This document shows, one piece after another, positions 59,195 through 63,219 of a DNA stretch of 64,000 nucleotides. Under the pieces are notes generated by a model that was given only the letters and a program-made list of their open reading frames with translations, was not told where the DNA came from and did not search any database. Both the position numbers and the translations under genes were made by a program. How positions within the stretch are numbered: the stretch's first letter is position 1; every line of letters starts with the position of its first letter. Source of the DNA: Endosaccharibacter trunci (GTDB lineage Bacteria; Pseudomonadota; Alphaproteobacteria; Acetobacterales; Acetobacteraceae); assembly GCA_024515975.1 (NCBI GenBank), contig JAMSKV010000004.1, positions 62,001 through 126,000 of the forward strand, in the 5' to 3' direction.

Positions 59195-59422
59195 TCAGAA
59201 ACACAGGCCGGAGAAGGCCTCGTCGAGCGCGATCTGCGCCGCATCCGGCCGCGCCAGGCCTGCGTCCACGCGTCCATTGCGCCAGCCATGCCAATAGGAG
59301 CGGGACCGATCGGAGCCCGGCTCGGGCCCGGCGCTCACGCCATCCAGGTAGCCCTCCAGCACATCGCCGTCGTCCAACAGGCGAAAGTCGGAAATCGTCG
59401 CAACCGGTAAAAATTCCGTCAT
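59195..59422 (-). CDS. Small protein of unknown function (75 aa)
   Basis: The ATG at 59420-59422 follows GGAGG at good spacing. The product has MTEFLPVATISDFRLLDDG, an acidic middle with EGYLDGVSAG, and SYWHGWRNGRVDAG, a segment seen in several small phage and bacterial proteins of unknown role. It is head-to-head with the acyltransferase gene and upstream of pheS on the same strand. Confidence 0.7.
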   Translation of the reverse strand: MTEFLPVATISDFRLLDDGDVLEGYLDGVSAGPEPGSDRSRSYWHGWRNGRVDAGLARPDAAQIALDEAFSGLCF

Positions 59423-59475
59423 TCTATACCTCCGCCGGTCGATGAAAGCGGTCCGACTGGCTTGCCAAGATCGTC

Positions 59476-59491
59476 CTGGCTTCACTGGCAG
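59476..59491. promoter_or_regulatory. Weak lux-box-like dyad upstream of the acyltransferase gene
   Basis: CTGGCTTCACTGGCAG has the CTG-N10-CAG spacing of LuxR-type operators and partly symmetric arms. It lies 38 bases before the ATG of the acyltransferase gene. No luxR gene is nearby and the match is short, so this is only a candidate. Confidence 0.2.
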
Positions 59492-59529
59492 AGACCGGCA
59501 CACCCATCCAACGCAAGGATCAATTCACC

Positions 59530-60246
59530 ATGTCTCTTTATCTGAACAAACCCACGCGAGCCGCCTCGACTGGCCTCACCGGGCCGGTTTTGACTGCCCG
59601 TCTGGCATTGACGCCCGAAACTCGCCGCGATGCTTACCGCCTGCGCTATCAAAGCTACCTTGCCGCCGGACATATCGAACCGAATCATTCTGAGACATTC
59701 TCCGACGTGTACGATGAGCTACCGAATACCAAAACCATCGTCCTCTATTATGATGACATGCCTGCGGCATCGGTCAGAACCTGCACGTTCGCCTCCGGGA
59801 CGGATGAACGTTCTCCTGCCGTGGATGTCTACAGAGAAGAAATCAACCAAATCTTAAAGGGAACCACTGAGACCGGGTATGGACAGCGCGGCATCGAGAC
59901 AACCCGCCTTGTCAGGAGCCCAAATTTTGAAAACAACCAGAGTCTGGTTTTCCTGCTCTACCGTATGGCGGGGTATGTCGGCATGATGGCACATACTCAG
60001 AGATTATTTGCTTGCGTCCGTACGAACCACGTTTCCTTCTACAAGCGGTTGGGCTACCAGCCCGCGGCGGAGGCCAGACCCTACCCGGGATTGAGCTGCC
60101 CGATGCAGTTGATGTCTTGCACGCGCGATCGATACGATGAGGTTCGCATGGCCTACCCGGTTATCGATCCCTACACGACGGCGACAGGGAACCTCGATCA
60201 TTTTCTCGATGGCGCTGCGGTTTCTTTGACGGTGCTGCCAAGATGA
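59530..60246 (+). CDS. FeeM / autoinducer-synthase-like N-acyltransferase
   Basis: A 238-residue protein (AAGGAT before the ATG) with a GNAT/LuxI-like fold. It has AYRLRYQSYLAAGHI (Arg37 to Tyr40), VYDELPN with Asp62, ASVRTCTF with Arg83, and GIETTRLVRSPNF with Glu123 and Arg126. This order (R-x-x-Y, D, R, E-x-x-R) is that of N-acyl amino acid synthases (FeeM) and AHL synthases, which move an acyl chain from acyl-ACP to an amine. The C-terminal FYKRLGYQP is GNAT-like. It is first of three overlapping genes with a membrane methyltransferase and a c-di-GMP enzyme. The product is unknown; an N-acyl amino acid is the best guess. Confidence 0.7.
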   Translation: MSLYLNKPTRAASTGLTGPVLTARLALTPETRRDAYRLRYQSYLAAGHIEPNHSETFSDVYDELPNTKTIVLYYDDMPAASVRTCTFASGTDERSPAVDVYREEINQILKGTTETGYGQRGIETTRLVRSPNFENNQSLVFLLYRMAGYVGMMAHTQRLFACVRTNHVSFYKRLGYQPAAEARPYPGLSCPMQLMSCTRDRYDEVRMAYPVIDPYTTATGNLDHFLDGAAVSLTVLPR

Positions 60247-60839
60247 CCGGCTGGATACCAACGCAGTGGTTTATCTGCTGGGGACTGGCTACGCTGTCTG
60301 CCGTCGTCTTTCTGCCATTTGGTTGGGCCGTGAAGGGGCATTTCGTCCGCAAAGCAGGCCTCCCCGGCGGCATGAAACTCCTGACAGCTGTCAGCTTGGC
60401 AAGCTATGGGTGGATGTTTCTCAACCTGGGCCAGCGTGATGCGCCTCCCCGGGTCGGTGAAATGATCGCCACGTTCCTGCTCATGCTCACGTCTGCCTCC
60501 TTGTTCTGGTGGGCAATTGCGGCGACACGCGAAAAGCGTCTCCACCTTGCCCACAGCGGATATGGATCAGACTACGTCCAATTTGTCGGACCATATCGCT
60601 GGATTCGGCATCCTTTCTACACATCATACATCGTGTTCTGGGTCGGAACCGGTTTGCTCGGCGGGTATCGGCAATGGCTGCCGGTGATCATCATCATTGT
60701 ATGGTATATCTGTCTCGCCCGCAGCGAAGAGAAGCAGTTCGCCGCGTCCCCATTGTCGGCTGACTACGAAGCCTATCGCCGCCGCACCGGAATGGTGCTG
60801 CCGCGCCTCGGTGCCTTCAGGCGGTCCAGCCAATGTTGA
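60243..60839 (+). CDS. Isoprenylcysteine carboxyl methyltransferase-like membrane protein
   Basis: The ATG overlaps the acyltransferase stop (ATGA), giving 198 residues with about five hydrophobic segments. The C-terminal half has VGPYRWIRHPFYTSYI (115-130), EE at 162-163 and YEAYRRRTG (175-183), the SAM-binding pattern of ICMT and PEMT-type methyltransferases. Such enzymes methylate carboxyl groups of membrane-bound lipids or lipid amines. Coupled to an N-acyltransferase, it could methylate the carboxylate of an acyl-amino acid, but this is inference. It overlaps the next gene by seven bases. Confidence 0.75.
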   Translation: MTGWIPTQWFICWGLATLSAVVFLPFGWAVKGHFVRKAGLPGGMKLLTAVSLASYGWMFLNLGQRDAPPRVGEMIATFLLMLTSASLFWWAIAATREKRLHLAHSGYGSDYVQFVGPYRWIRHPFYTSYIVFWVGTGLLGGYRQWLPVIIIIVWYICLARSEEKQFAASPLSADYEAYRRRTGMVLPRLGAFRRSSQC

Positions 60840-63166
60840 GGACGGTAAACCCACTTGAGTTGGCAAGGGCGCTTCGCCGGTTCTTGGCGTATTACGCAAC
60901 CGTACCGGAAGAGGGAGTGTTGCGGCAGGAACAGGCGGCAATTCTGCTGACCACCACCTACCTGTTTGCAGCTCTTGGCAGCGGCAGCGCCACCTTGTTT
61001 TCCATTGCCTTCGACGGATGGGCGTCCGGCCCAATAGCCATTGCCTACAGCGCTGTCCTCGGTTCCTACATCGCGATGATCTTGAATGGACTTCGTTGGC
61101 GCCGCAAGCAGAACCACGTCGCTTTCATCAAATCCACCGTGTTTCTACTGTTCTTGTTAGGTATCGCCTGGGGCGCTCTGGTCAATCTATTCGCTCTGGG
61201 AGCCAGGCTCGACCAGCAGGGCACTCTCATCGGTCTGGTCATGGCGCTGGTTTCGGCACCAATGCTCGGCGTACCTCTAAGTGCCGCACTAGCCTTCTTT
61301 CTTCCAATCTCGATTGCCTGCTCGATCGTCATCGTTTTCCTGATTACGCCGATCGAATATGTGGCTGTATTGTCTTTCCTGGGCTTTCTGGTATTCGCCA
61401 TCACCGGCTTCGTGTCGATGAACAAGACCATCATGGATCGGCTGGTCGCCCGACTCAAACTCCAGCGCGAACACGAGATCGTCCGAGTTTTTCTACGCGA
61501 ATATGAAGAGGTGTCTTCCGACTGGCTCTGGGAGTCGGATGCGAACCATCGGCTCCGAAATGTTGCGCCACAACTGGTGGAAGCATTGAACACAACCGCC
61601 ACGCGGCTGGAAAACCTCGACCTTTTTCGGATCGCCAGAACTGATATCGCCGGCAGCGAGGGCGAAAGCGTCGCGGAGGCGATGCGGAACGGTACCGCTT
61701 TCCGTGATCGCCAAATTGCCGTTAGGGGAACGGATGGCCCACGATGGCTGAACGTCACCGGCCACCCGGTACATGACGACAAGGGCGTGTTCCTCGGTTA
61801 TCGCGGGATTGGCTCAGACATCACCGCCGCCTATCTCAATCGCCAGCAGATCGAATTCATGGCGCGCCATGACGGGCTGACACGGCTGCTCAACCGTCCC
61901 GCCTTCGTCAGCGAAACCGATGCCGTGCTCAGTCGCCAACCCAATCAGTCGCATGCGCTCATGCTGATCGATCTGGATGACTTCAAACAGGTCAACGACG
62001 ATCTCGGCCATGCCTCGGGAGATGCGTTGCTGAAAACGGTCGCAGCGCGCTTGCGGGAACATCTTCAGCCGAGCGAAGTCGCCGCCAGGATCGGTGGCGA
62101 CGAGTTCGCCGTGTTGATCCGGGTGCAGGATCAGCCTTCTGCCGCCGCGCGGGCCGCAAGCCTCTGTGTTGCGCTTCAGATCGAAGGGGGCGCCCCCAAC
62201 TCAAGTCTACCCACCAGCGCCAGTATTGGCGTGGCGATTTCGCCGACGCATGGCACGAGACTTGATCAGCTTATGCGCCGGGCAGATTTCGCGCTGTACG
62301 AGGCCAAGAACCAGGGCAAAGGCGCTCCATGCTTTTTTGAGATGCGGATGGAAAACGCTTTCCTGAGCCGGCAGCGCCTGCTGAGCGAACTGGCCACGGC
62401 GTTGGATCAGGGTCAGATTTTCGCCGAATACCAACCCATCGCCGATGTCAGCAGCGGCCAGATCGTCTCCGCCGAAGCTCTGGTGCGCTGGGCACACCCC
62501 ACGCGCGGCAAGCTCGCGGCAGGCAGCTTCGTGCTGGCCGCCGAAGGCAGCGACCTGATCGAACCCCTCGGCGCGCGCATGCTGAAGCTGGCCTGCCGCG
62601 CCGCAGGGACCTGGCAGACACGCATCCCCGTCTCGGTGAACCTGTCGCCCCGGCAATTGCGATCCGGCCGCTTCGTCCCGATCCTTACCGAATGTCTGGC
62701 CGAGACCGGCCTGCCGCCGCATCGGCTGATCCTCGAAGTCACCGAAACCGTCTTCCTGGACACGCCCAGCCGCATCATCCAACAGCTGGACCTGATCAGG
62801 GCGATGGGTGTGCGCCTGGTGCTGGACGATTTCGGCACCGGCTACTCGTCGCTCACCTATCTGCGGCGTTTCGATGTGGACGGCATCAAGATCGACGCCT
62901 CGTTCGTGCGCGACCTGCCGCACTCGCGCAAGGTCGGCGCCATCGTCCGCACGATCGGACGTCTCGCCTCCGACATGAACATCTACGTCACCGCCGAAGG
63001 CGTCGAGACCGAGGAGCAGCTTCGTTGGCTGCGCGGCAACGGCATCGCCTTCGCGCAGGGTTTTCTGCTCGGCCGGCCGGCCGACGACCCGTTCGTGGCC
63101 ATGACAAGCGCCGCGCGCGAACGCCGTCAGGCGCCGGCGCGGCCGCTGGAACACGGTCCGGCCTGA
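60833..63166 (+). CDS. Membrane PAS-GGDEF-EAL protein (c-di-GMP synthesis/degradation)
   Basis: A 777-residue protein. The N-terminus (~40-195) has five or so membrane helices in a MASE-like sensor, then a coiled coil, a PAS domain (~225-335), GGDEF (RIGGDEF, 421-425) and EAL (AEALVRW, 548-550). The EAL domain keeps VNLSPRQL, DDFGTGYSSL and EGVETEEQL, so phosphodiesterase residues are present. The GGDEF motif is intact, but the usual RxxD inhibitory site upstream reads QPSE, so product inhibition may be lost. It is last of three overlapping genes and probably senses a membrane-soluble signal and sets c-di-GMP level. Confidence 0.9.
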   Translation: MLRTVNPLELARALRRFLAYYATVPEEGVLRQEQAAILLTTTYLFAALGSGSATLFSIAFDGWASGPIAIAYSAVLGSYIAMILNGLRWRRKQNHVAFIKSTVFLLFLLGIAWGALVNLFALGARLDQQGTLIGLVMALVSAPMLGVPLSAALAFFLPISIACSIVIVFLITPIEYVAVLSFLGFLVFAITGFVSMNKTIMDRLVARLKLQREHEIVRVFLREYEEVSSDWLWESDANHRLRNVAPQLVEALNTTATRLENLDLFRIARTDIAGSEGESVAEAMRNGTAFRDRQIAVRGTDGPRWLNVTGHPVHDDKGVFLGYRGIGSDITAAYLNRQQIEFMARHDGLTRLLNRPAFVSETDAVLSRQPNQSHALMLIDLDDFKQVNDDLGHASGDALLKTVAARLREHLQPSEVAARIGGDEFAVLIRVQDQPSAAARAASLCVALQIEGGAPNSSLPTSASIGVAISPTHGTRLDQLMRRADFALYEAKNQGKGAPCFFEMRMENAFLSRQRLLSELATALDQGQIFAEYQPIADVSSGQIVSAEALVRWAHPTRGKLAAGSFVLAAEGSDLIEPLGARMLKLACRAAGTWQTRIPVSVNLSPRQLRSGRFVPILTECLAETGLPPHRLILEVTETVFLDTPSRIIQQLDLIRAMGVRLVLDDFGTGYSSLTYLRRFDVDGIKIDASFVRDLPHSRKVGAIVRTIGRLASDMNIYVTAEGVETEEQLRWLRGNGIAFAQGFLLGRPADDPFVAMTSAARERRQAPARPLEHGPA

Positions 63167-63189: not shown

Positions 63190-63219
63190 AAAAAAAAGCC
63201 GTTCCACGACGGGAACGGC
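63190..63219 (-). terminator. Intrinsic terminator of rpmI-rplT
   Basis: GCCGTTCC and GGAACGGC form a GC-rich stem, and the adjoining A-run at 63190-63197 becomes a T-run on the minus strand. It lies just after the rplT stop and also about 30 bases after the GGDEF-EAL stop, so it may serve both directions. Confidence 0.85.

Follow-up and report, generated by a model that had tools for sequence, protein, structure and literature searches.

The 64,000-nucleotide stretch of Endosaccharibacter trunci contig JAMSKV010000004.1 analyzed here (the window, whose numbering is used for all positions) carries three overlapping genes encoding a FeeM-type N-acyl amino acid synthase, a membrane methyltransferase and a membrane sensor protein with GGDEF and EAL domains (P3), which form a real, recurring cassette with synthase and sensor as its core. 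That the trio is a mobile lipid-signal module setting the level of cyclic di-GMP (c-di-GMP) is given a probability of about 0.5, slightly on the favorable side. Its components are as follows:

59530..60246, plus strand: FeeM-type N-acyl amino acid synthase, 238 amino acids (aa) (Pfam FeeM, E 2e-35)
60243..60839, plus strand: predicted ICMT-fold integral-membrane S-adenosylmethionine-dependent methyltransferase, 198 aa
60833..63166, plus strand: membrane sensor-PAS-GGDEF-EAL protein P3, 777 aa (Pfam, motifs)
60833..61525, plus strand: hexahelical membrane sensor domain of P3 (P3N), from an AlphaFold2 (AF2) model
61514..61831, plus strand: PAS domain of P3 (PF08448, PAS_4, residues 228-333)
61862..62320, plus strand: GGDEF domain of P3, RIGGDEF motif intact (PF00990, residues 344-496)
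62387..63079, plus strand: EAL domain of P3, searched motifs intact (PF00563, residues 519-749)

The overlaps of 4 bases (FeeM/methyltransferase) and 7 bases (methyltransferase/P3) described in the sequence-only reading of this DNA are borne out by the coordinates of the open reading frames (ORFs). The same reading took the first product for a FeeM/LuxI-like acyltransferase; the FeeM part stands, with 122.3 bits against PF21926 (cut-off 27) and with FeeM itself (2g0b, 9.6e-5) as the sole match at E <=0.01 in a PDB search using FeeM profile A1, while the LuxI part had to be abandoned, PF00765 (Autoind_synth) giving no match at E <=1. With the window FeeM as a single sequence, the PDB search did not find 2g0b. 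Neither PilZ nor any other added domain was detected in this protein by Pfam. The second product, previously called ICMT-like, deserves this name by its predicted fold, to which ICMT is the closest, and falls short of the curated thresholds: its best Pfam family is PEMT (22.6 vs 25 bits required), followed by ICMT (21.2 vs 24), and the isoprenylcysteine O-methyltransferase equivalog of NCBIfam scores 27.6 bits vs 160. As to P3, its description as a membrane PAS-GGDEF-EAL protein with both catalytic motifs intact proved correct (PAS_4 2.9e-5, GGDEF 6e-40, EAL 2.9e-62), both domains having the catalytic motifs looked for. RxxD, the inhibitory-site motif preceding GGDEF, was not found upstream of this domain. 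P3N matched no Pfam family; its AF2 model (pLDDT 89.4) contains helices at 28-59, 66-92, 95-123, 126-141, 149-170 and 176-234.

Recurrence of the cassette was assessed in 397 Acetobacteraceae genomes searched for FeeM and for P3N. P3N lies within 6 kb of 63 of the 67 strongest FeeM genes (E <=2.2e-23). Since a GGDEF neighbor is expected by chance in a few per cent of cases (12 GGDEF matches per 3.7 Mb in the host's own genome), the grouping goes beyond chance. Conversely, 64 of the 73 strongest P3N genes have a FeeM gene nearby among the FeeM matches listed, the cross-table having left aside rows weaker than about E 1e-8 and one of two pieces in genome G126. FeeM genes unaccompanied by P3N are represented by G273, which has FeeM and methyltransferase only, by two copies close to the end of their contigs, in the direction in which P3 is expected (G108:C544 and G308:C173), and by G287:C33, which has no P3N; among 29 lower-scoring FeeM rows (down to about E 1e-8), P3N accompanies two, both broken copies (G126, G344). 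As for P3N without a listed FeeM, the FeeM gene runs off the contig end in L148 and is a remnant in L145, and no FeeM is present in the fetched stretches of L143, L144, L146, L149, L150 and L151, with P3 itself cut by the contig end on the 3′ side in L149 and L151. In L147, P3 and methyltransferase are retained and no FeeM is seen. At the genome level, with kinship uncorrected, both genes occur in 49 genomes, P3N alone in one and FeeM without strong P3N in two (G273, and G001, whose P3N is truncated at the end of the contig).

The order of genes is far less constant than their proximity. In the set of 73 FeeM-like ORFs (a broken gene in L113 contributes two, and L079 and L131 represent one locus, from another family), P3 is divergent with no methyltransferase in 26, the FeeM-methyltransferase-P3 line seen in the window is found in 20, and P3 is divergent with the methyltransferase behind FeeM in 11, the remainder being FeeM-P3 in line (5), a convergent methyltransferase-P3 pair (3) and loci with no P3 (8). 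The suggestion that the three genes are mere neighbors with no common function is contradicted by this conservation of linkage while gene order changes; it also conflicts with the recurrence in other taxa, the co-divergence and the Rhodobacteraceae-type plan described below, and is given almost no credence. The methyltransferase adjoins only 36/73 FeeM-like ORFs and is therefore an addition to the synthase-sensor core, missing from about half of the cases. Methyltransferase and P3 share a single open frame, apparently fused, in L041, L044, L045, L054, L161 and L164; such a frame is also seen in L165 and L179, which come from the genomes of L044 and L041, respectively. In L233 (5847-7439) a class I methyltransferase and FeeM occupy a single open frame, an internal start being possible.

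Output domains of the linked P3 proteins are retained to a different degree. The GGDEF motif is intact in 63/65 linked P3 ORFs (two exceptions are fragments), whereas the EAL domain is absent in 8/65 (three of them, L158, L067 and L095, being fragments or lying at contig ends), and the EAL motif is unmatched in four further ORFs and oddly matched in one. More frequent retention of GGDEF hints that c-di-GMP synthesis may be the more constant output of P3.

When named genomes were scanned with the FeeM of the trio loci as seed, the complete trio was found in 25/25 loci, 14 of them new and 11 already present in the 397-genome sample. Seven of the new loci belong to another taxonomic order (Aureimonas, Fulvimarina and Jiella; Aurantimonadaceae, Hyphomicrobiales), while others come from Rhodopila globiformis, three Gluconobacter species and Roseomonas relatives. 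Two outcomes named beforehand as speaking against the cassette, that its genes are rarely neighbors in other genomes or that the acyltransferase clusters with an unrelated GNAT family, did not appear: the genes are regularly found together in other genomes, and the enzyme belongs to FeeM. Across the phylum sample, FeeM was detected at E <=1e-20 in 35/398 genomes, and one region from each of 20 of these was inspected. Within the same class (15 loci), FeeM adjoins a GGDEF-EAL protein in 11 (one of which, L223, has no standard GGDEF motif), a histidine kinase in two and neither in two; Shinella sp. PSBB067 is a named example of the FeeM/GGDEF-EAL neighborhood. Outside the class, a GGDEF-EAL protein stands beside FeeM in none of five loci, and in one of these, L227, two kinase-like ORFs lie at a distance of 2 to 2.5 kb and lack the sensor considered here.

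Divergence of FeeM follows that of the sensor domain more closely than that of the catalytic domains of the same P3 protein, as judged from distances in 66 loci (drawn from 89 by the presence of both catalytic domains and removal of repeat records) less L058, L183, L094, L073 and L047. Together with the recurring plan of FeeM, methyltransferase and membrane sensor, this co-divergence lends support to the earlier proposal that the membrane domain acts as the sensor, and the mechanism offered in the sequence-only reading remains the best available. According to it, FeeM would couple a fatty acyl group to an amino acid, and the membrane ICMT-fold enzyme would methylate the free carboxylate, yielding an N-acyl amino acid methyl ester (NAME-type lipid). 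The hexahelical P3N would bind this lipid (in cassettes lacking the methyltransferase, the free acid), and the long helix and PAS domain would transmit the binding to the balance of GGDEF vs EAL activities, so that the product level, reporting cell density or secretion, would be recorded as c-di-GMP. What the product and the ligand are, where methylation takes place, which sign the output has and which partner controls the other are points that we infer.

The main rival reverses the direction of control: P3 would sense oxygen, redox state or surface, and its c-di-GMP would switch FeeM, the lipid being a secreted surfactant or matrix component and not a ligand. An analogous proposal exists for fusions of N-acyl amino acid synthases (NAS) with PilZ (PMC4897644), P3 does contain a PAS domain, and in the 11/15 same-class loci with a GGDEF-EAL neighbor neither type of methyltransferase is present. 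Nevertheless, neither PilZ nor an extra domain was found in the window FeeM, the partner of FeeM in Rhodobacteraceae-type genomes is a histidine kinase, and FeeM co-diverges with the membrane domain more than with the catalytic ones, so that reverse control appears unlikely while still ahead of other alternatives. Less probable again is a role in membrane-lipid homeostasis, with FeeM and methyltransferase making a structural aminolipid and P3 monitoring the state of the membrane instead of a diffusible signal. FeeM products are long-chain lipids, both the methyltransferase and P3N are modeled as membrane helices, and hexahelical domains are able to respond to lipids (PMC11606603), which all agree with such a role; the patchy presence of the trio within the genus, its lowered G+C content and the synthase-sensor co-divergence are better suited to a specific signal than to a bulk lipid.

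The proposed methylation of the FeeM product finds its best evidence in another group of genomes, taken here as Rhodobacteraceae because the ychF gene of genome G989 shares about 80% identity with copies on Paracoccus plasmids. FeeM at E <=1e-15 is present in 9/379 of them, and in eight of these nine it stands with a methyltransferase and with a membrane histidine kinase, the latter always of one kind. Three loci (L234, L237 and L239) have an ICMT-like methyltransferase and five (L221, L224, L233, L235 and L238) an unrelated class I enzyme in its place; L236 has no kinase, and its match to the class I enzyme is weak (3e-8). Among named members, Loktanella salsilacus represents the ICMT-like and Sulfitobacter the class I variant, their kinases being 42% identical, the membrane domain included. 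The sensor domain of L237 is identical to its L. salsilacus counterpart, and this locus may belong to that species. The swap of two unrelated methyltransferases beside the same synthase and sensor suggests that the FeeM product is their substrate. Were the methyltransferase to act instead on a different lipid, as a phospholipid methyltransferase would, the top rank of PEMT among its sub-threshold Pfam families could be understood. However, the nearest predicted fold is that of ICMT, enzymes of two types interchange beside FeeM, and methyltransferase frames are joined to those of P3 or, in L233, of FeeM, and we regard it as the most improbable of the functional alternatives.

In L. salsilacus the ICMT-like methyltransferase gene overlaps FeeM (two plasmid records), this FeeM showing a weak PF00765 match (2.1e-5). 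Loktanella strains F13, F14 and D3 produce N-acylglycine methyl esters (NAGMEs), described as native and not methanol artefacts (PMC6296433), and a 2024 paper states that no synthase candidates are known for NAMEs (PMC11580390). Presence of the FeeM-methyltransferase pair in a NAME/NAGME-producing genus, a match at the genus level only, makes the L. salsilacus pair a concrete candidate route to N-acylglycine methyl esters, the pair and the producers belonging to different Loktanella strains. If the joint reading is accepted, a similar gene pair could be the missing biosynthetic route to roseobacter NAMEs, a tentative assignment with the odds somewhat against it. Membership of P3N in one family with the sensor linked to rhizobial FeeM and with that of the roseobacter kinases was considered and rejected (hhalign not significant, and single-sequence comparisons likewise giving no support); the relation of the rhizobial sensor to P3N was undetectable by hhalign, and the P3N query against plasmids gave no lead.

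In the window, the trio is situated between rplT and pheS on the opposite strand. Its G+C content is 0.55-0.61 vs 0.673 for the window, and a FeeM match is found in 2/5 genomes of the host genus; both features are compatible with horizontal movement, and we infer that the module is mobile. The trio nevertheless occupies a common site in the window and in congener G181. Some FeeM neighborhoods do not fit the plan: FeeM occurs with neither sensor nor methyltransferase on Acidiphilium plasmids, on a Palleronia plasmid and, as two genes, on a Rhizobium leguminosarum plasmid. A clean empty rplT-pheS site in congeners was sought and rejected, G056, G219 and G132 having no pheS within 1.5 kb of rplT. 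The interval from pheS to the trio holds a 102-aa ORF (59195-59503, minus strand) that gives no Pfam match and shows 71% identity over 86 residues in G181. A hairpin with a T-run at 63190-63219 on the minus strand resembles an rplT terminator and faces the trio end. On Acidiphilium plasmids L190 and L197, FeeM (2.3e-75 against our FeeM profile in L190) is transcribed divergently from the gene of a 382-aa protein that contains a winged-helix stretch, no P3 being present; Rhizobium and Neorhizobium plasmids L187 and L188 carry an ICMT-like methyltransferase by a divergent alpha/beta hydrolase with no FeeM in the stretch; and on Deinococcus plasmid L198 a FeeM-like gene adjoins a fatty acid desaturase.

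In kind, the trio combines two known plans, RpfF/RpfR and Phc, while its synthase, product and sensor are different. The products of RpfF are cis-2 unsaturated fatty acids, and RpfF, to our knowledge, is not a FeeM/LuxI-type enzyme, whereas the window synthase matches FeeM only; RpfR, as far as we know, has a different N-terminal domain and no membrane sensor, while P3 is modeled to begin with a hexahelical membrane domain, and a methyltransferase is absent from RpfF/RpfR. What is alike is that the gene of a lipid synthase adjoins one for a PAS-GGDEF-EAL protein, as the gene for the synthase of the fatty-acid signal BDSF is beside its receptor in Burkholderia and Cronobacter (PMC6361424). The Phc system of Ralstonia (PhcB/PhcS), where a methyltransferase making a lipid methyl-ester signal is encoded with a sensor kinase (PMC10653808), resembles the FeeM-methyltransferase-kinase loci. 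Its signals are 3-hydroxy fatty acid methyl esters and not N-acyl amino acids, and its output is a kinase, in contrast to the GGDEF-EAL output of the trio. N-acyl amino acid synthases, the sequence family of the window enzyme, occur as PilZ fusions (PMC4897644) and in methyltransferase/ThiF/nitroreductase clusters (PMC12479983). The NAMEs and NAGMEs of Roseovarius and Loktanella belong to the product class predicted for the trio, whose host is not a roseobacter, and these esters are not known to act as signals. We know of no FeeM in Phc. Work of Craig in 2011 reportedly tied N-acyl amino acid synthases to exosortase; such a link was rejected for the host, PF09721 having 0 matches in its genome. 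Six-helix receptors (adenylyl cyclase membrane domains, CqsS, ImcA) feed a second-messenger enzyme or kinase (PMC11606603, PMC4821796, PMC10904736), and P3N, likewise hexahelical according to its model and supported by a model match, precedes an enzyme of nucleotide second messengers. A gene-cluster survey of Acetobacteraceae reported NasY homologues solely in three Acidiphilium type strains (PMC8776678), so that it seems to have missed the module, and no description of the module was found in the open-access literature, preprints being outside the scope.

It is in Acetobacteraceae that c-di-GMP was discovered. For this family the module would offer a defined synthase, modifier and sensor jointly testable as a c-di-GMP input, and it may represent a bacterial counterpart, acting through c-di-GMP, of the adenylyl cyclase membrane domains in their role as lipid receptors.
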